Source of the DNA: a candidate division TA06 bacterium
GTDB taxonomy: Bacteria; Hydrothermota; DG-26; E44-bin18
Assembly: GCA_004376575.1 (NCBI GenBank)
Contig: SOJN01000012.1
Location: forward strand, 1-47,832
Direction: 5' to 3'
Length of the DNA: 47,832 nucleotides
Shown here: in pieces, positions 20,389 through 47,832 of the stretch
Layout: each line of letters starts with the position of its first letter
Numbering within the stretch: position 1 is the first letter of the stretch
Notes under the pieces: generated by a model
Seen by the model: only the letters and a program-made list of their open reading frames with translations
Database searches by the model: none
What the model was told of the DNA's origin: nothing
Translations under genes and position numbers: made by a program

Positions 20389-20512
20389 CGAAATTCCACC
20401 CAACACCCTCACACCCCTTCGAAATTCCACTCCACCCTCTTCCCCACCTTCGAAATTCCTCCCGACCCCCCCACCCACCTTCGAAAATAGAAAATCGAAA
20501 ATCGGTACCGCA
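20389..20512. repeat. 31-bp-periodic CGAAATTCC array (island 1)
   Basis: Cores CGAAATTCC begin at 20389, 20420 and 20451, and a variant CGAAAAT begins at 20482: three successive intervals of exactly 31 bases. The fill between cores is C/A/T with almost no G on the plus strand. After the last core comes the A-rich variant block GAAAATAGAAAATCGAAAAT. The array lies just upstream of the thiC promoter, with the G-rich strand reading towards thiC. Confidence 0.75.
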
Positions 20513-20695: not shown

Positions 20696-23600
20696 TTATT
20701 TACCCATAGTCTCTATTTTGGCTTCTAACGCTTCAATGCGCTCTTGCTGTTCCTGGACCACTTTGGTCAGGACCGCCACAATATCCATAGGCGACACGCC
20801 TTTTCTGTCTTTAGTCGCTACAAGATCGGGGACATCCTCAGCTATGAAGCCCACGAATGTTTCATCTTTGTCAGATTTGTAATTGTATCTAACAGGAGTC
20901 AATCTACTCACTGCTTCTATGGCTTCTTCTGAAGTAAGCTCAACAATCTGTTCCTTGTATTCCCTGCTCGATCCGTCTACCCAAGTGAAGCCATTACAGT
21001 AAGCGCCATTTGTGCCCACATCCAATAAATGTGTTGGTGCCGTGTTTCCAATGCCAACTCTGACCGGGCCGGGCGAGTGGTAGAATATGACCGCATTAGC
21101 AGTTGAAGTCGTGAAGTTCCGTCCAAATCCGAACGTGTAGTCAGCGGTTACCCTGACCTGTCGGCCTGCGGCAAATGAGTGCCATCCGGTGACTGTATCA
21201 GCCTCTCCACCAGCCACAGTCGCATAGTACCCGCTGGCGATGTTGTTCCATCCCCCGCCCACAGTCGCACCAAAACCGCTGGCAGTGTTGTTCAATCCTC
21301 CGCACACCGTCGTATAGAGGTCGCTAGCAGTGTTATCCTGTCCTCCGCCGATGGTCGTACAGAGCTGGCTGGCAGTGTTGTCCCGTCCTCCGCCCACGCT
21401 CGCCCCGGTGCCGCCAGCATTGTTGCTATCTCCTCCGGCCACGGTCGCGTAGTCGCCACTGGCTGTGTCCGCATATCCGCCTCCCACGGTCGCATATTGG
21501 CCGCCGGCCGTGTTTTGCTCTCCACCGCCCACAGTCGCGAGATTGCCGGCAGCGGCATTATCCCATCCTCCACCAATCGCAGCCCAGTCACCGTTGACCA
21601 CATTCATGCCTCCACCACCAATGGCGGCGCCGTTACCGCTCGCTGTATTGTCTCGGCCACCACCAACGACGGCGTACTGGCCAGTCGCGCTGCTCTTTTC
21701 TCCACCGCTCACAGTACCATGATAACCGCCCGCGGTATTGCCACTTCCGCCACCAACAGCCGCATAGTCGTAGCTGGCGGTGTTGCCATATCCGCCGCTC
21801 ACGGTGCAGAATGCACGATTTTGCCCTGAAGTACCAGTAGTGCAAGCGATACCAAGGTTTACGTGTGTAGTATCATAGACACCGTAAAGGACATTAAAAC
21901 TGCGCATTGCAAGGCCGTAGCTGGAACTTGGATGAAGCACACTGCCAGTTATGGTCCAGTCATTGTCGCCGGCAGCAGCCTGCCAGGCCCCCTGACCAGA
22001 AGCATCTGAAGTCAGAACATAACCAGTTGCCGCACCTGCAGGCAAACTGAAACCCGTCATCTGAACAGTACCATCAACATCCAACCTCTCTGTAGGGCTC
22101 ACCGTTCCTATGCCGACGCTGATTGGATCGACCGAGTTATGAAATATGACTGCGTTAGGCGTTGAAGTTGTGAAATCCCGTCCAAATGCGAACGTGTAGT
22201 CTGCGGCTCCAGCGACCCTGACCAAGTTGCCTGCGGCAAAAGAGTAGTCTCCGGCTACTGTATCGGCATATCCTCCGCCTACGGTGGCCCAGCTGCCGCT
22301 AGCAGCGTTGTATCCTCCCCCAGCTACCGTGGCACCGTAGCTGCTAGCGCTGCTGTAACCTCCACCGCTCACGGTGGCACCGGGTGAGCCGGCGGTGTTG
22401 AAAGCTCCACCAGCCACGGTGGCACCCGAGCCGTTGGCGGTGTTGGAACCTCCGCCACCTACGGTCGCAGCCGTGTCTGTGGCCGTGTTGAAAGCTCCAC
22501 CAGCTACCGTAGCACCCGAGCCGCTGGCGGTATTACCAAATCCGCCACCCACAGACGAATAAACCGCAACCGCTGCATTGTCCGAGCCGCCGGCCACGAC
22601 GGCGGCAGTGTCTTCAGGCTGATCACCGGCAATGTTATGACGGCCTGACAGGACTGCACCATAAACAGCCCTTGTTGTATCAGCATATCCCCCACCCACC
22701 GTCGCATGGCTGCCACTGGCAGTGTTGTTTTGTCCTCCGGCAATTGTCGCAAACAAAGCACTGGCGACATTGCTTTCTCCCCCGCCCACGGTCCCCCTAT
22801 TGCCGCTGGCAGTGTTGTTTTGTCCTCCCCCAACGGTCGCATACCAATCACTGGCGACATTGCCTGCTCCGCCACCCACGGTCGCATACCAGTCGCCCGC
22901 ACTGTTGCTCAGTCCGCCGCTGACTGTGCAGTATTTGTAATTCTGACCCGACATGCCCGTAGTGCAAGCAATCCCAAGGTTCACATGTGTGCTATCATTG
23001 GTGCCATAGAGCACATTAGAACTCCGCATCGCAAGCCCATAGTCTGCACTTGGATGAAGCACACTGCCAGTTATGGTCCAGTCATTGTCAGAACCAACAG
23101 GAGCCGCGAAAGCATAATCCGCAGTATCCGCATAAGGGGCTTTGAACGCAGCCTCAGCATCGCCTCTTACTATAGTCCCATCAAGGATCATACCGCTCGT
23201 AATCGCATCTGTCTGCCCCTCGTTCACATATTGTATATCCCCGGCCGAAAGCGGGAAGAGATCGCTCGCCCCAGGCGTCGCGCTCGCATCAAACCCGTCC
23301 ACCATACCAGCATCATCAGCACTGTCTGCCTTGACAGCACGATAGGCATAGCCGACACTCGTAATCTCTGTCCTGGGAGAAAGAGTCTGGGCTACTATTG
23401 TCAGCTCGAGCCATCGCGATTGTCCGGCCCCGAAGACATCCGATGGTATGGGTGTCGTAGAACCCAGGACTACATTGAAAAGACCTTCCTCAACAACTAC
23501 ATTCCCATTCTCATTCCACAGCTCGCTTCCAGCGCCTGGATCATCCCAGATTCCAAAGGTCATGCTCAGAGTGTCATTTATGGGATTGCCCGCATCATCT

Positions 23601-23794
23601 GTAAGGTATCCCTGATAGTTTATGTGCCAGGGAACGACCAGCATCCGTGCGGGCTTCATAACATGCGACTCCGTTCTCTTCACCTCGACTTTACCCAACC
23701 TGGCCCCATCAATCGCCTTTCTCTGTTGTGCCACAGCAACAGCGCATACAGCAAAGGCTGCCAGAACTATTACGATCAATATCCTCTTTGACAT
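20696..23794 (-). CDS. Repeat-built surface protein with YadA-like head repeats and C-terminal S74 chaperone domain
   Basis: A 1032-residue exported protein. A signal peptide (about 1-22, ending near AVAVAQ) is followed by a beta-rich domain (about 50-180) opening HINYQGYLTDDAGNP. Two similar modules then each start with DNDWTITGSVLHPS. Each has a long run of 15-residue repeats of the form TVGGGxxNTASGxxA (about 291-515 and 665-871), and each closes with DYTFxFGRxFTTST and VGIG. The repeats resemble the left-handed beta-roll heads of trimeric adhesins. The last ~100 residues form a Peptidase_S74-type chaperone: SSREYKEQI (Ser and Lys five apart, the self-cleavage dyad), FVGFIAEDVPDLV, and a terminal coiled coil EQQERIEALEAKIETM. 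A trimeric, self-processing surface fibre is inferred. It lies 35 bases after the next secreted-protein gene. Confidence 0.85.
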   Translation of the reverse strand: MSKRILIVIVLAAFAVCAVAVAQQRKAIDGARLGKVEVKRTESHVMKPARMLVVPWHINYQGYLTDDAGNPINDTLSMTFGIWDDPGAGSELWNENGNVVVEEGLFNVVLGSTTPIPSDVFGAGQSRWLELTIVAQTLSPRTEITSVGYAYRAVKADSADDAGMVDGFDASATPGASDLFPLSAGDIQYVNEGQTDAITSGMILDGTIVRGDAEAAFKAPYADTADYAFAAPVGSDNDWTITGSVLHPSADYGLAMRSSNVLYGTNDSTHVNLGIACTTGMSGQNYKYCTVSGGLSNSAGDWYATVGGGAGNVASDWYATVGGGQNNTASGNRGTVGGGESNVASALFATIAGGQNNTASGSHATVGGGYADTTRAVYGAVLSGRHNIAGDQPEDTAAVVAGGSDNAAVAVYSSVGGGFGNTASGSGATVAGGAFNTATDTAATVGGGGSNTANGSGATVAGGAFNTAGSPGATVSGGGYSSASSYGATVAGGGYNAASGSWATVGGGYADTVAGDYSFAAGNLVRVAGAADYTFAFGRDFTTSTPNAVIFHNSVDPISVGIGTVSPTERLDVDGTVQMTGFSLPAGAATGYVLTSDASGQGAWQAAAGDNDWTITGSVLHPSSSYGLAMRSFNVLYGVYDTTHVNLGIACTTGTSGQNRAFCTVSGGYGNTASYDYAAVGGGSGNTAGGYHGTVSGGEKSSATGQYAVVGGGRDNTASGNGAAIGGGGMNVVNGDWAAIGGGWDNAAAGNLATVGGGEQNTAGGQYATVGGGYADTASGDYATVAGGDSNNAGGTGASVGGGRDNTASQLCTTIGGGQDNTASDLYTTVCGGLNNTASGFGATVGGGWNNIASGYYATVAGGEADTVTGWHSFAAGRQVRVTADYTFGFGRNFTTSTANAVIFYHSPGPVRVGIGNTAPTHLLDVGTNGAYCNGFTWVDGSSREYKEQIVELTSEEAIEAVSRLTPVRYNYKSDKDETFVGFIAEDVPDLVATKDRKGVSPMDIVAVLTKVVQEQQERIEALEAKIETMGK
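21180..21800. repeat. 45-bp tandem repeats, second head module
   Basis: Coding-strand repeats of about 45 bases encode the 15-residue TVGGGxxNTASGxxA units of the surface protein. About 14 units lie here. Copies differ at synonymous and variable positions, so the array is old, but the shared GGCGG-type cores could still recombine. Confidence 0.8.
22240..22925. repeat. 45-bp tandem repeats, first head module
   Basis: A second block of 45-base units, homologous to the one at 21180-21800. It is separated from that block by a ~300-base linker that also has a counterpart at the end of the protein. Whole-module duplication is the simplest origin. Confidence 0.8.
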
Positions 23795-24651: not shown

Positions 24652-24795
24652 GGAGATTGCTTCTGCTCGCTTCGCGAGCATCGCAATGACATGTTTTTCT
24701 CTCGGGAGAGAGTGGTGCGTGCTTCCGGAATTTGATGTGGTGCTTCGCGTTACTCAGTGCACCATCATAGGTCTCAGATCATCAATCTTGAATGG
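24652..24795 (+). repeat. Composite dispersed repeat, copy 1
   Basis: Order of parts: GGAGATTGCTTC, a hairpin (GCTCGC-ttc-GCGAGC), TCGCAATGACA, GTTTTTCTCTCGGGAGAG, GTGGTG..., GATGTGGTGCT, then words of the AGATCATCAATCTT type. Copy 2 with the same order is at 33399-33555. Only the hairpin stem is replaced, by a different but equally paired sequence. Confidence 0.7.
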
Positions 24796-24851: not shown

Positions 24852-24879
24852 GTAGGGGCGTATTGCAATACGCCCCTAC
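24852..24879. repeat. Perfect 28-bp palindrome
   Basis: GTAGGGGCGTATTG is followed at once by its exact reverse complement, giving 14-base arms with no loop. The GTAGGGGC arm is shared with the hairpins of island 1 (20566-20620) and with single arms at 32967, 33250 and 33558. Confidence 0.85.
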
Positions 24880-24942: not shown

Positions 24943-25374
24943 GAATTTCGGAGGGGTTGCGGGGCGTTGGGTGGAATTTCGCAATTTCTGCGGCTCGGGA
25001 AAGGGCGGAAGGGAATTTCGTTATTTGCAGCCTTGGGTTGGGCTATTTTCATTTTCGATTTTCGAAGGTCGGGCTGGGGGGTGGATGGGAAGTTCGAAGG
25101 TTCGGCGAGTGGGGGTCGATATTCTATTTTCGAAGGTGAGTGCGGGGTCGGGTGGAATTTCGCAATTTCGAAGGTCGGGCTGGGAGTGAACGGGAATTTC
25201 GAATGTGGGTGGAAGGGCTGTGAGGAATTTCGGGTGTGTCGGGGATGATGAGAGGGGAATTTCGTAATCTTCCGTCTTGGGATGGGTTTAGGTGTGATTT
25301 CTCAATTTCCGGGCTGAGGGAAGGACTGGGCGGAATTTCCCATTTTCCAATTTCTGGAGTCGGGGAAGGCAGGG
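24943..25374. repeat. 31-bp-periodic GGAATTTCG array (island 2)
   Basis: Cores GAATTTCG or close variants begin at 24943, 24974, 25013, 25089, 25125, 25155, 25194, 25225, 25257, 25295 and 25333, with a diverged block near 25045-25068. Most intervals are 30-32 bases. Where the core is doubled (GAATTTCGCAATTTCG, +8 bases) the interval is 38-39. The fill is G-rich on the plus strand. The array stops against the stop codon of the aldolase gene. Confidence 0.75.
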
Positions 25375-30316: not shown

Positions 30317-31735
30317 TCAATCCTGGAGGTCAATCCCGACCACCCTGATCTCCGTCATCTCTTGAACTGCATACCTTGGGCCTTCCCTCCCCAAACCACT
30401 GCCTTTTACACCGCCGTAAGGCATCAAATCCGCCCTGTAGGTGGGAATCTCATTTATCATAATTCCGCCCACCTCGATCCTTTTCGCCGCCTCAAACGCC
30501 GACTTCAAATCTTTTGTGAATATTCCTGCCTGGAGCCCATACTCTGAATCGTTCGCTGCTTCTATTGCCTCATCCAGGGTCTTGAAGGGATTGACGACAA
30601 TAAGTGGCGCAAATGCCTCCTTGAACCAGACCTTGCAATCTCTGGATACATCCCTGAGTATGGTAGGCTCAAAAATGGTTTTGACCCTGTTACCACCCAT
30701 CACAATCTTTGCTCCCCTGGCCTTGGCTTCACCAACCCATTCCTGCACCCTTGCCGCGGAAGCCTCATCGATCATTGGCCCCATATCCGTGGAATCATCA
30801 AGAGGATTTCCGGTTTTGATCGATTGGACCTCCTTCTTGAGCATATCCAGGAATCCCTCAAATACATCTTCCTGAACGAGCACTCGTTGAACCGAAATGC
30901 ACACCTGGCCGGCAAGAGCATATCCTCCAATCCGGATCCTCTCTGCAGCCCTTTCCAGATTCGCATCATTCATCACTATGCAGCATGAGTTGGAGCCCAG
31001 TTCCATGGTGAGCTTCTTAAGGCCCGCATTGGCAGCAATATCCTTTCCCACTTCAAGACTTCCCGTAAAAGTGACCATCCTCACATTCTCATTTCTTACA
31101 AGCTCTATTCCAATTGTCCCGCCGGAACCTGTAATCACATTCAGGCAGTTCGGCGGAAGACCTGCCTCCAACAGAACTTCAGCCAGAAGGAGTGCAGAAA
31201 GGGGAGTTGCTGAGGCAGGCTTTAAGATAACCGAGTTCCCGGCGGCTAAAGCGGGCCCCACCTTGTGGCACACCAGATTGAGCGGAAAATTGAAAGGATT
31301 TATCGCAGCAATCACACCAACCGGCACTCGCATGGCAAAACCCATCTTGTGCTGTCCTCCTGGAGCTGCATCAAATGGGATCGTCTCTCCATAAATCCTT
31401 TTTGCTTCTTCAGATGAGAGTGTGATCGTTTGAACAGCGCGTGAAACTTCACCCTTAGCTTCCTTCAGCGTCTTTCCCACTTCCTTGCTCATGGTGGTTG
31501 CCAGTTCATCAGCTCTTTTCCTGATTAGGTCCGCGGCCCTGGACAGAATCTGGGAGCGATCGTAGCTGGAGATGGTCGAAATTTCCTTCAGGCCAATCTG
31601 AGCACTGTTGATGGCGCGGTCTAGGTCCTTAGCATCAGCACGCGGGACAGTATCCACAACAGATTGATCGTATGGGTTCAGAACCTCTATCTTTTCTTTC
31701 TTTTCAATCCACTCTCCGCCAATCAGCATCTTCAT
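30317..31735 (-). CDS. Aldehyde dehydrogenase family protein
   Basis: A 472-residue NAD(P)-dependent aldehyde dehydrogenase. The catalytic residues are clear: Glu245 in TMELGSNS and Cys279 in AGQVCISVQR. The Rossmann motif is in FTGSLEVG, and INPFNFPLNLVCHKVGPALAAGN matches the cofactor-binding region. Overall it looks like the lactaldehyde/phosphonoacetaldehyde/GapN-like branch; the exact substrate cannot be told. The ATG overlaps the stop of the nitrilase gene (ATGA), and GGAAGG precedes it. Pairing with a carbon-nitrogen hydrolase suggests breakdown of a small aldehyde and an amide product. Confidence 0.9.
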   Translation of the reverse strand: MKMLIGGEWIEKKEKIEVLNPYDQSVVDTVPRADAKDLDRAINSAQIGLKEISTISSYDRSQILSRAADLIRKRADELATTMSKEVGKTLKEAKGEVSRAVQTITLSSEEAKRIYGETIPFDAAPGGQHKMGFAMRVPVGVIAAINPFNFPLNLVCHKVGPALAAGNSVILKPASATPLSALLLAEVLLEAGLPPNCLNVITGSGGTIGIELVRNENVRMVTFTGSLEVGKDIAANAGLKKLTMELGSNSCCIVMNDANLERAAERIRIGGYALAGQVCISVQRVLVQEDVFEGFLDMLKKEVQSIKTGNPLDDSTDMGPMIDEASAARVQEWVGEAKARGAKIVMGGNRVKTIFEPTILRDVSRDCKVWFKEAFAPLIVVNPFKTLDEAIEAANDSEYGLQAGIFTKDLKSAFEAAKRIEVGGIMINEIPTYRADLMPYGGVKGSGLGREGPRYAVQEMTEIRVVGIDLQD

Positions 31736-32541
31736 CTTTTCCTTCCTTTCTTTAGCTCTGTATACAGATCTGTCCTCCTGTCTCTGAAGATGTGATTTAG
31801 AAGTGTCACTTTCTTGTCTCTTGCTTCTCTCAAGCTTATCTTAGCAGTAATCGCAGTCTCCTCTTTCTCAAGAGCCTTCGCCAGGATCTTACCTCTTGGG
31901 GAGATTATCTCACTCCCGCCCGTGAATGTGAGACGTTCTCCTCTCCTCTTTTCATTGCCTACTCTATTTGCCAGGATTATGAAAATACGATTCTCCAGGG
32001 CGCGCGTCACCATCGCATCCTGGCAGTAGGGCAGGATAAGGTTTGATGGATGAGCTATGATGTCTGCGCCCTTCAAGGCCAGTTCCCGGAAAGGCTCTGG
32101 GAAAATCCAGTCAAAACATATGAGCATGCCGACTCTTGCTTCGCCGACACGGTGAACCTGATAAGGACCCTTTCCTGAGTCAAAGAGAAGCTTTTCGAAG
32201 AGAAATAGATGCGTCTTTCTATACTTTCCAATCCTGCCGTCCGGCTTTATCAACATGGCAGTGTTGTAGATCTTTTTTCCTTCGCGTTCCGCTATCCCGG
32301 CCACAATAGAAGTCCTCTTGGTTTTGGCATAATCCATCAAAGCCTGCGTCGTCTCTCCCCTCCCAACCGGTTCAGCGAGATCCCGCACCTCACTTTTGTC
32401 TTTGAAACTGTATCCGGTGTTGAACAATTCAGGAAGGACGTACAGGTCAGCTCTCTTCTTGTTCATGAGAGTGATAGCCCGCTCTATATTATGCCTCTTT
32501 TTCCCAAAAAGTGGTCGGAATTGAATTGAGCCTATCGTCAC
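31732..32541 (-). CDS. Nitrilase-superfamily carbon-nitrogen hydrolase
   Basis: A 269-residue amidase of the nitrilase superfamily. The Glu-Lys-Cys triad is Glu38 (LPELFNTGY), Lys109 (YRKTHLF) and Cys142 (ICFDWIFPE). The start is GTG at 32541, with GGAGG six bases upstream and a promoter at 32564-32592. Upstream frame to 32637 lies across that promoter and has no family similarity. Specificity is not clear; omega-amidase, carbamoyl-putrescine and N-carbamoyl-amino-acid hydrolases are all in this superfamily. It is the first gene of a two-gene operon with the aldehyde dehydrogenase. Confidence 0.9.
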   Translation of the reverse strand: MTIGSIQFRPLFGKKRHNIERAITLMNKKRADLYVLPELFNTGYSFKDKSEVRDLAEPVGRGETTQALMDYAKTKRTSIVAGIAEREGKKIYNTAMLIKPDGRIGKYRKTHLFLFEKLLFDSGKGPYQVHRVGEARVGMLICFDWIFPEPFRELALKGADIIAHPSNLILPYCQDAMVTRALENRIFIILANRVGNEKRRGERLTFTGGSEIISPRGKILAKALEKEETAITAKISLREARDKKVTLLNHIFRDRRTDLYTELKKGRKR

Positions 32542-32563
32542 GCCGTCCTCCTGGTGGAACTGG

Positions 32564-32592
32564 ATTGTACACGGCAGACGATGACCATTCAA
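32564..32592 (-). promoter_or_regulatory. Promoter of the nitrilase/aldehyde dehydrogenase pair
   Basis: Minus strand: TTGAAT (32587-32592), 17 bases, TACAAT (32564-32569). The leader would be about 16-17 bases and includes GGAGG. It decides the start codon at 32541. Confidence 0.65.
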
Positions 32593-32638
32593 CCCAAAAG
32601 GAAACTGACTGCTAGGCTGTACGCCATACTCTGACATA

Positions 32639-32700
32639 CGAAATTCCCTTCACCCCCCAATCCAACCTTCGAAAATGGTCTGAAGCATTTGGGCGCACCC
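32639..32700. repeat. 31-bp-spaced cores, C-rich on plus strand
   Basis: CGAAATTCC at 32639 and CGAAAAT at 32670, 31 bases apart, with C/A-rich fill. The G-rich strand reads towards the nitrilase gene. Confidence 0.6.
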
Positions 32701-32932: not shown

Positions 32933-33036
32933 GAATACTTTGCCCGGTCTTGTGCGCAGGCCATGTGTAGGGGCATCTTGCGGTATAGCACTGGTATTTT
33001 GAGATGGGGGTAGGATATTCTCTGTTCTCGATTTTC

Positions 33037-33120
33037 TATTTTCGTAGGTCCGGGGAAGGGTGGATAGGAATTTCGTAATTTCGAAGGGGGGATAAATGGG
33101 GCTGGGAATTTCGGAGGTGA
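33037..33120. repeat. 31-bp-spaced cores, G-rich on plus strand
   Basis: Cores begin at 33037 (TATTTTCG), 33068 (GAATTTCG, doubled at 33076) and 33106; intervals are 31 and, from the doubled core, 30 bases. The G-rich strand reads towards the D-aminoacylase gene. Confidence 0.6.
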
Positions 33121-33837: not shown

Positions 33838-33932
33838 TTGTCATTGCGAGACTCGCGGAGCGAGTCGAAGCAATCCCCCTCATTTGACATGTTTTAGATT
33901 GCTTCGCGCCCTTCGGGCGCTCGCAATGACAA
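33838..33932. repeat. Nested inverted repeat
   Basis: Outer arms TTGTCATTGCGAG (33838-33850) and CTCGCAATGACAA (33920-33932) are perfect. Inner arms GAAGCAATC (33868-33876) and GATTGCTTC (33897-33905) are perfect too. Each side also holds its own hairpin (ACTCG/CGAGT; GCGCCC-ttc-GGGCGC). The composite repeat's TTGCTTC...TCGCAATGACA unit is thus present twice in opposite orientation. Confidence 0.75.
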
Positions 33933-33983: not shown

Positions 33984-34025
33984 TAATTTCGAAGGTGAGT
34001 GGAAGGGCGGAGTGGAATTTCGGGA
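33984..34025. repeat. 31-bp-spaced core pair before the D-aminoacylase gene
   Basis: TAATTTCG at 33984 and GAATTTCG at 34015, exactly 31 bases apart, with G-rich fill. The second core ends 26 bases before the -35 box. Confidence 0.6.
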
Positions 34026-34093: not shown

Positions 34094-35674
34094 ATGGAAG
34101 TGGATATTCTCATAAAAGGCGGAGACATCATTGACGGGACAGGCAAGGCAACCTATCAGGCAGACCTTGCCATTCTCAAGGGGAGAATATCACGAATCGG
34201 CGCACTGAATGATATCCAGGCCACGGAGACAATCGATGGCCACGGAATGGTCATCTGTCCCGGCTTCATTGACATTCACGGACACTCAGATATCTCCCTT
34301 CTAGTTTGCCCCACAGCAGACAGCAAGATCATGCAGGGGATAACGACTGAAGTCGCAGGAAACTGCGGAGAATCAGCGGCCCCTGTTTCTAAGAGAATGA
34401 TGGACGATCTAGCCGCGGACGCAAAAAGATTTGAAGTGGAGCTGAGTTGGGGAACCCTGGGCAGTTTCCTGGATATGCTCGAGGGAAGAATATCAATTAA
34501 CTATGCAACTCTTGTGGGACTGGGCACCATAAGAGGTGGGGCAATCGGTACAATTGACAGGCCAGCAAGCCCCTCCGAACTGTCAAGGATGCAGGACATG
34601 GTGAAGGAGGCCCTGGACCAAGGGGCTCTGGGAATCTCAACCGGTCTTATGTATCCTCCAGGTATGTACGCAGATATGCAGGAGATTGTAGAACTCGCGA
34701 AATGTGCTGCGAGCAAGTCAGGCATCTACGCCTCTCACATAAGAGGGGAAGGCAAAAATCTTGCCCCTGCAGTCGAAGAAGCAATCCAGATCGGCAGAGA
34801 GGCGAGCATTCCCGTTCAGATATCTCACCTGAAGGCGTCGGGCGAATCAAACTGGGGAAGAATGGCCAGCATTTTGTCAGGAATAGAAGATGCATCAAAA
34901 GATGGTGTGGATGTGATGGCCGACAGATACCCATACATAGCCGGAGCCACAAGCCTCGCGGCCATTTTCCCGGCCTGGTCGCACGAGGGTGGAAGAAAGG
35001 CATTTCTCACCCGCCTAAAAACAGCTGACCACACACCGAATCTGAAAAAAGCAATTGATGAAAGAGTCGCGGATGTGGGATGGGGAAAGATCATTCTGAC
35101 AAACGCCTGGTCTGCGCAGAACACTGAGCTTGAAGGAAAATCCATTGCCGAGTGTGCCGCCAGAACCAACGTGGATCCCTATGATATCCTGGTCAAGTTG
35201 ATTCTCGACAGCGAGGGGCTGGCATCCATGGTTTCATTCACACAGGATGAGAACGACATGTTAATAACACTGACCCACCCCAAGGTCATGGTATGCTCAG
35301 ACAGCGGAGTGAAATCCCCTGAAGGTAAGCTTGGTGAAGGCAAACCGCATCCTAGATGCTACGGCGCATTTCCAAAATTTCTCAATCTATTCGTGCGTCA
35401 AAAGGGGTTGCTCACCATAGAAGAAGCAATACGAAAGATGACCAGCATGCCTGCGAAAAGGCTCAAATTGGAAAGCAGAGGGACATTGAGTGAAGGGTTT
35501 TTTGCAGATATCGTAGTGCTCAATCCGTCAAGGATCGAGGATACTGCCACCTACCAGAATCCCCACAGCTATCCCCAAGGCATAGAGTACGTCATTGTCA
35601 ATGGGGAGTTGGTTGTCAACAAAGGCATTCACACAAAAGCAGCGCCCGGGATGGTCTTGAGAAGACAGGGGTAA
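34094..35674 (+). CDS. D-aminoacylase (N-acyl-D-amino-acid deacylase)
   Basis: A 526-residue amidohydrolase that frees D-amino acids from N-acyl derivatives. Family marks are IHGHSD (His62, His64), GITTEVAGNCGESAAP with the metal-ligand cysteine (Cys91), SHIRGEG, QISHLKASG, DRYPYIAGATSL, and VCSDSGVKSPEG (catalytic Asp), then RCYGAFPKFL. The C-terminal beta-domain piece GFFADIVVLNP is present. No signal peptide. GGAGGGAG precedes the ATG. It heads a plus-strand operon with a CAP-domain protein and a GalT-like protein. Cleavage of D-amino-acid-containing peptidoglycan fragments is a plausible natural role, but dihydropyrimidinase-like substrates cannot be excluded. Confidence 0.9.
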   Translation: MEVDILIKGGDIIDGTGKATYQADLAILKGRISRIGALNDIQATETIDGHGMVICPGFIDIHGHSDISLLVCPTADSKIMQGITTEVAGNCGESAAPVSKRMMDDLAADAKRFEVELSWGTLGSFLDMLEGRISINYATLVGLGTIRGGAIGTIDRPASPSELSRMQDMVKEALDQGALGISTGLMYPPGMYADMQEIVELAKCAASKSGIYASHIRGEGKNLAPAVEEAIQIGREASIPVQISHLKASGESNWGRMASILSGIEDASKDGVDVMADRYPYIAGATSLAAIFPAWSHEGGRKAFLTRLKTADHTPNLKKAIDERVADVGWGKIILTNAWSAQNTELEGKSIAECAARTNVDPYDILVKLILDSEGLASMVSFTQDENDMLITLTHPKVMVCSDSGVKSPEGKLGEGKPHPRCYGAFPKFLNLFVRQKGLLTIEEAIRKMTSMPAKRLKLESRGTLSEGFFADIVVLNPSRIEDTATYQNPHSYPQGIEYVIVNGELVVNKGIHTKAAPGMVLRRQG

Positions 35675-47719: not shown

Positions 47720-47832
47720 CGAAATTCCCATCATCTCCTCCCTGCACATTCGAAAATAGAAACTCCCTTCACCCATGGCCCACTCCTTCGAAATTCCACC
47801 CAACTCTACCCCACACCTTCGAAAATAGAAAA
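47720..47832. repeat. 31-bp-periodic CGAAATTCC array upstream of hflX (island 4, cut by window edge)
   Basis: Cores begin at 47720 (CGAAATTCC), 47751 (CGAAAAT), 47789 (CGAAATTCC) and 47820 (CGAAAAT). Intervals are 31, 38 and 31 bases, the longer one containing an extra seven-base A-rich piece. The fill is C-rich on the plus strand, so the G-rich strand reads towards hflX. The two core types alternate. Confidence 0.7.

Follow-up and report, generated by a model that had tools for sequence, protein, structure and literature searches.

Bacterial genomes commonly carry small interspersed repeats for which no mobiliser is evident, and such repeats are poorly understood. Several described families resemble the locus reported here. 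Neisserial intergenic mosaic elements (NIMEs) are mosaics in which a short conserved core is repeated hundreds of times between longer variable stretches (PMC9778887). The BOX elements of Streptococcus pneumoniae are modular, vary in the number of internal modules, cluster with other families, and have been judged parasitic (PMC3049150). In Xanthomonas and Nostoc, GGGNATC heptamers are G-rich, tandem, and dispersed, and lie mostly in noncoding DNA near genes (PMC4692102). In the Beggiatoaceae, TAACTGA heptamers make up numerous intergenic groups of short direct repeats close to genes (PMC4679880), and REP/REPIN sequences with their RAYT transposases are short dispersed extragenic repeats (PMC3116915).

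The DNA analyzed here (the window, 47,832 nucleotides) is one contig (C12) of a 3.0 Mb genome assembled in 150 contigs. The main array lies between two minus-strand genes, and the window holds five further members of the same repeat family. The six features are as follows.

20389–20510, minus strand: second array, three units with heptamers TTTTCGATTTTCTATTTTCG at the 5' end, G-rich on the minus strand
24943–25374, plus strand: main array of 31-bp units with cores doubled at 7 and 8 bp; the plus strand is the G-rich one
32639–32690, minus strand: one unit that forms the left half of a divergent pair, 2 bp away from the ORF at 31732–32637
33018–33113, plus strand: two units led by a heptamer, with the core doubled at 8 bp; right half of that divergent pair
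33985–34022, plus strand: single unit, 71 bp upstream of the ORF at 34094–35674
47720–47832, minus strand: three-unit array that runs to the contig end

Exact AATTTCG cores of the main array are located at 24944, 24975, 25014, 25156, 25164, 25195, 25226, and 25258. Variant cores (ATTTTCG, AAGTTCG, AATTTCC, and AATTTCT) lie between and after the exact ones, and degenerate cores continue to approximately 25355. Profile matches cover 24944–25020 and 25128–25264, with a weaker match at 25312–25339. The cores are spaced at 30–33 bp with a peak at 31, plus 7- and 8-bp doublings, which confirms the 31-bp core array of the preliminary description. The second array is 21 bp from a ThiC-like ORF and has a TRF period of 31 with 3.2 copies.

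A genome-wide 31-base peak had been set beforehand as the test of the array, and the peak was found. Statistics came from two samples, one of 435 kb that combined the window with stretches of large contigs and one of 791 kb, enriched for arrays, that contains 77 arrays with 150 units. The 435-kb sample has 12 AATTTCG pairs at exactly 31 bp, compared to 0 at spacings of 30–32 bp together in three Markov-1 random versions of it. Genome-wide, two AATTTCG cores separated by 20–28 bases occur 99 times, compared to 0 for the reversed control, and GGAATTTCGCAATTTCG with at most two mismatches occurs 130 times compared to 0 in the control. These data show that the array is real and far above chance, and that it is a single locus of a dispersed repeat family. 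Contig ends are enriched for arrays, with 12 of 59 lying within 700 bp of an end (approximately 4 expected, p = 7e-4). This enrichment resembles that of repeats that break assemblies, and the arrays seem to break this one, so their number and length are probably underestimated.

The consensus unit is roughly AATTTCGAAGGTGNGGGGRRGGGTTGRGNGG. Exact cores were required for unit selection, and the constancy of the core in the consensus is therefore partly a selection effect. Unit lengths in 95 units are 31 (59), 30 (15), 32 (11), 33 (8), and 29 bp (2). The filler is 58% G and 7% C. It had been described as G-rich and C-poor but different in sequence from copy to copy; the bias and the variation hold, but the fillers also share a strong column consensus. 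Their summed information is 20.6 bits compared to 10.7 ± 0.2 bits after each filler was shuffled, and pairwise identity is 57% compared to the 40% expected from composition. Subfamilies are present, and columns 24, 28, and 29 are linked. Changes at G columns go to T (83), A (57), and C (31), and the excess of G to T changes may hint at a compositional constraint. The preliminary description also held that spacing is conserved better than sequence. Substitution-dominated drift of a copied 31-bp unit would give the same pattern, so conserved spacing alone does not imply that spacing is under selection.

Adjacent core spacings were counted in the 791-kb sample with a relaxed core. The most frequent were 8 (116), 31 (97), 30 (32), 7 (30), 32 (21), 33 (11), and 39 bp (10), and core doublings by 7 or 8 bp are as frequent as 31-bp steps. 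Summed core distances of 38, 39, 47, 62, 69, and 70 bp are all common, and the longer distances are sums of 7, 8, and approximately 31. Arrays are built from a G-rich 31-bp unit with GGAATTTCG at its end, the 8-bp AATTTCGN, and the 7-bp ATTTTCN. An array is thus a string of three core-sharing modules rather than a single-phase lattice. Where module order was compared at array edges, few doublets were captured. Unit score showed no trend along the arrays that would indicate directional growth (rho 0.10, p = 0.39).

The arrays share a repeated short core, longer elements between the cores, and an intergenic location with NIMEs. The dRS3 of NIMEs, however, is a 20-bp inverted repeat, ATTCCC(N)8GGGAAT, that flanks elements of 50–150 bp, whereas the array core is the nonpalindromic 7-bp AATTTCG with a 31-bp period, one G-rich filler family, and a polarity. 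A dRS3-type inverted repeat is absent from the core. Like BOX, the arrays are small interspersed repeats of modular build in which the number of internal modules varies. BOX is further marked by terminal inverted repeats, target-site duplications, predicted RNA stem-loops, and an insertion sequence whose ends are similar; no such feature emerged from the analysis of the arrays. GGGNATC repeats differ in having a 7-bp instead of a 31-bp unit and the reverse orientation to the nearest gene, and the canonical G3 motif is found in a minority of the arrays. TAACTGA repeats are found for the most part immediately before start codons and recur in several phyla, whereas the arrays face starts as well as stops and are limited to one genome. 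REP/REPIN sequences are likewise dispersed and extragenic, and RAYT-like genes are present in this genome, but the arrays are neither palindromic nor RAYT-flanking. The earlier distinction from REP elements is borne out by a unit that has no inverted repeat and an RNA fold equal to that of shuffled sequence. RNA structure was rejected on the same comparison of the array fold with shuffles, and a known RNA family was also rejected. The distinction from CRISPR also stands: the fillers share a consensus instead of being unique spacers, and the 7-bp core alone is near-constant. Translations of the ORFs next to the array do not look like Cas proteins. The family is of an ordinary kind, a bacterial small interspersed repeat, in an unusual form that is tandem, G-rich, modular, and strongly polar toward gene edges. 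In its workings it comes closest to NIMEs and BOX, although their defining traits are either absent from it or not demonstrable.

Gene context was taken from a simple codon-usage gene finder. Three of the 77 arrays in the 791-kb sample overlap a called ORF, and the remainder are intergenic. AATTTCG density is 2.16 per kb in intergenic DNA compared to 0.10 per kb in coding DNA (21-fold), and array-bearing gaps have a median of 623 bp compared to 197 bp for other gaps (approximately 3-fold). The AATTTCG 3' edge is nearer a gene in 47 of the 56 arrays with both neighbors known (p = 1e-6, a somewhat generous value because arrays of one gap are not fully independent). Median distances to a gene are 104 bp for the 3' edge and 381 bp for the other edge (Wilcoxon p = 1.3e-6). 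This polarity is seen when the gene at the 3' edge is on the same strand (25/33) and when it is on the opposite strand (22/23). Opposite-strand arrays that share a gap are divergent in nine cases and convergent in none. Two other dispersed words from array-bearing gaps had no polarity. Since the polarity is indifferent to which way the genes read, it seems to belong to an inserted piece and not to transcription.

Unit similarity is 0.553 within arrays and 0.572 between arrays, compared to a composition expectation of 0.404; this lack of local homogenization is hard to reconcile with simple tandem duplication. For 74 of the 77 arrays, matches that touch the array were found elsewhere in the sample, and there are 991 inter-locus matches, many of which may reflect unit-to-unit similarity instead of block copying. 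Several reach into the flank with 83–90% identity over 147–208 bp, such as L017 versus L018 (86% over 199 bp) and L101 versus L102 (90% over 176 bp). A multi-unit block is present in two copies in the L089 region. The most economical explanation is that blocks were copied from locus to locus and then drifted, in which case the 31-bp spacing would be inherited; approximately one-third of the units are already off 31 bp by 1–2 bp. Neither an empty site nor a target-site duplication could be demonstrated because the nearest relative compared shares only the order, and the outer flanks of the nine divergent pairs, judged by eye, have no evident target-site duplication. The 9:0 ratio of divergent pairs and the outward polarity might point to terminal inverted repeats, but most loci carry arrays on one side only and no sharp ends were fixed.

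A profile search of the genome gave no match to DDE_Tnp_1, rve, Transposase_mut, IS110, or RVT_1, whereas the controls matched. Seven Y1_Tnp (HUH Y1, RAYT-like) matches are the only transposase-like genes found. The DNA around these seven loci contains no arrays and only single AATTTCG words, and a RAYT/REP link was rejected because the arrays do not flank RAYT-like genes. Some Y1_Tnp loci carry other repeats, GGGGACGGTGCTTGACATTTT and GGAGTAGC...GCGCTACTCC. Repeats of the GGGGACGGTGCTTGACATTTT type lie on both sides of the RAYT-like gene at L113 (contig C46, 40701–40991); TGGGGACGGTGC recurs in 12 gaps and, with the L113 repeats, is likely a RAYT-linked family. Thirteen tyrosine-recombinase matches were found, some of them decayed, and a link to them was rejected because AATTTCG is not enriched nearby, decayed fragments included. 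The short or stop-interrupted tyrosine-recombinase fragments at L163 and L165–L169 (contigs C108, C92, C19, and C141) suggest decayed integrated elements.

An overlapping unit pattern occurs 60 times in its own genome and 0 times in 146 other genomes of the phylum, and a stricter, related pattern is absent from viral contigs. In a collection of 84,980 named species, which may omit the window's own species, the sole match to the stricter pattern was rejected as chance, since it falls within an ORF of TIR-domain-like type from a Spartobacteria genome. AATTTCGAAGG was not found in an 87-kb sample of a same-order relative (GC 26%) or in a 312-kb sample of a same-class relative (GC 39%), which has other repeat words instead. 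A single array-like match in the same-class relative was set aside as it appears to sit in coding DNA. The family is confined to one genome among those searched.

The main array is a locus of a lineage-specific, noncoding, intergenic, modular dispersed repeat family that we consider probably selfish or neutral. Unit-bearing blocks would be copied and then inserted into intergenic DNA as composite inserts, the outer termini of which would be the AATTTCG ends. Arrays would lengthen by block duplication and by gain of units from elsewhere, followed by point-mutation drift. Such a family would need no sequence-specific host function and would be self-spreading or neutral DNA. The whole family is restricted to one lineage, in a genome without the common insertion-sequence transposases tested, and its strong gene-edge polarity, independent of gene direction, offers a handle on how such DNA inserts. 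It is possible, although unlikely, that the arrays represent a novel kind of interspersed element. It would be a modular repeat, tandem, G-rich, and strand-polar, capping intergenic inserts with outward 3' ends, in which units are exchanged between loci faster than they are homogenized within an array. That element would lack hairpins, sharp terminal inverted repeats, and a recognized transposase.

The preliminary description proposed that the cores face one side of the helix and serve a filament- or platform-forming protein. Regular spacing near three helical turns, an AT core amid G-rich DNA, and the intergenic placement are consistent with a platform for a nucleoid or filament-forming protein, but the module spacings argue against it. 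An 8-bp step is approximately three-quarters of a helix turn, so doublings of 7 and 8 bp that are as common as 31-bp steps break the phase. A period of 10.5 bp is not singled out (R = 0.25, compared to 0.31 at 10 and 0.36 at 7.5). The conservation of the G-rich filler by column, not of spacing alone, and the absence of a counterpart in the 146 genomes of the phylum also speak against a binding platform, and we regard it as quite improbable.

We assign a similarly low probability to G-quadruplex formation by the G-rich strand close to the ends of genes, as with the GGGNATC repeats of Xanthomonas and Nostoc. Across the arrays, the highest G4Hunter score over 25 nt has a median of 1.64 and reaches at least 1.2 in 71 of the 77 arrays, GGG runs are modestly above shuffles (2.25 compared to 1.95 per filler), and the arrays are intergenic and near genes. 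The canonical G3 motif (loops 1–7), however, is present in just 12 of the 77 arrays, RNA folding is equal to shuffles (z = 0.09 and −0.57, in a fold model without quadruplexes), and the orientation to the nearest gene is opposite to that reported (PMC4692102). The suggested structural use of the G-rich strand may apply but is not favored.

A C-rich strand acting as a Rho-utilization (rut) element that ends transcription after genes is very unlikely. The 3' edge facing an opposed gene lies a median of 53 bp past its stop, where the transcript would be C-rich and G-poor, but the polarity is also seen toward gene starts (25/33), and co-directional gaps hold about equal numbers of same-strand (19) and opposite-strand (16) arrays. 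Chi and uptake sequences are not known to be scarce in coding DNA, whereas the cores are rare there, and opposite-strand arrays lie 13–520 bp apart. It is hardly credible that the arrays serve the host as strand-directed signals of the KOPS, Chi, or DNA-uptake type, despite a short, abundant core and GGGNAGGG in 13 of 60 fillers; the KOPS-like octamer was rejected with a count little above the column-shuffled expectation of 8.6 ± 2.3.

Other repeats accompany the arrays. A perfect palindrome with 14-bp arms, GTAGGGGCGTATTG/CAATACGCCCCTAC, is located at 24852–24879 just upstream of the main array, and other gaps with arrays contain comparable GTAGGGGC...GCCC stretches. A hairpin-like element of the type TCATTGCGAG...GAAGCAATC / GATTGCTTC...CGCAATGACA is found in the window at 24655–24692 and near 33850, and at L101 near 4900; it occurs in at least 15 gaps and has no polarity. 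A large ORF at 20696–23794 of the window encodes glycine-rich TVGGG(G)xxNTA repeats of approximately 15 residues, with TRF repeats of 45 and 90 bp in its DNA, and its C-terminal region reads like an endosialidase chaperone.
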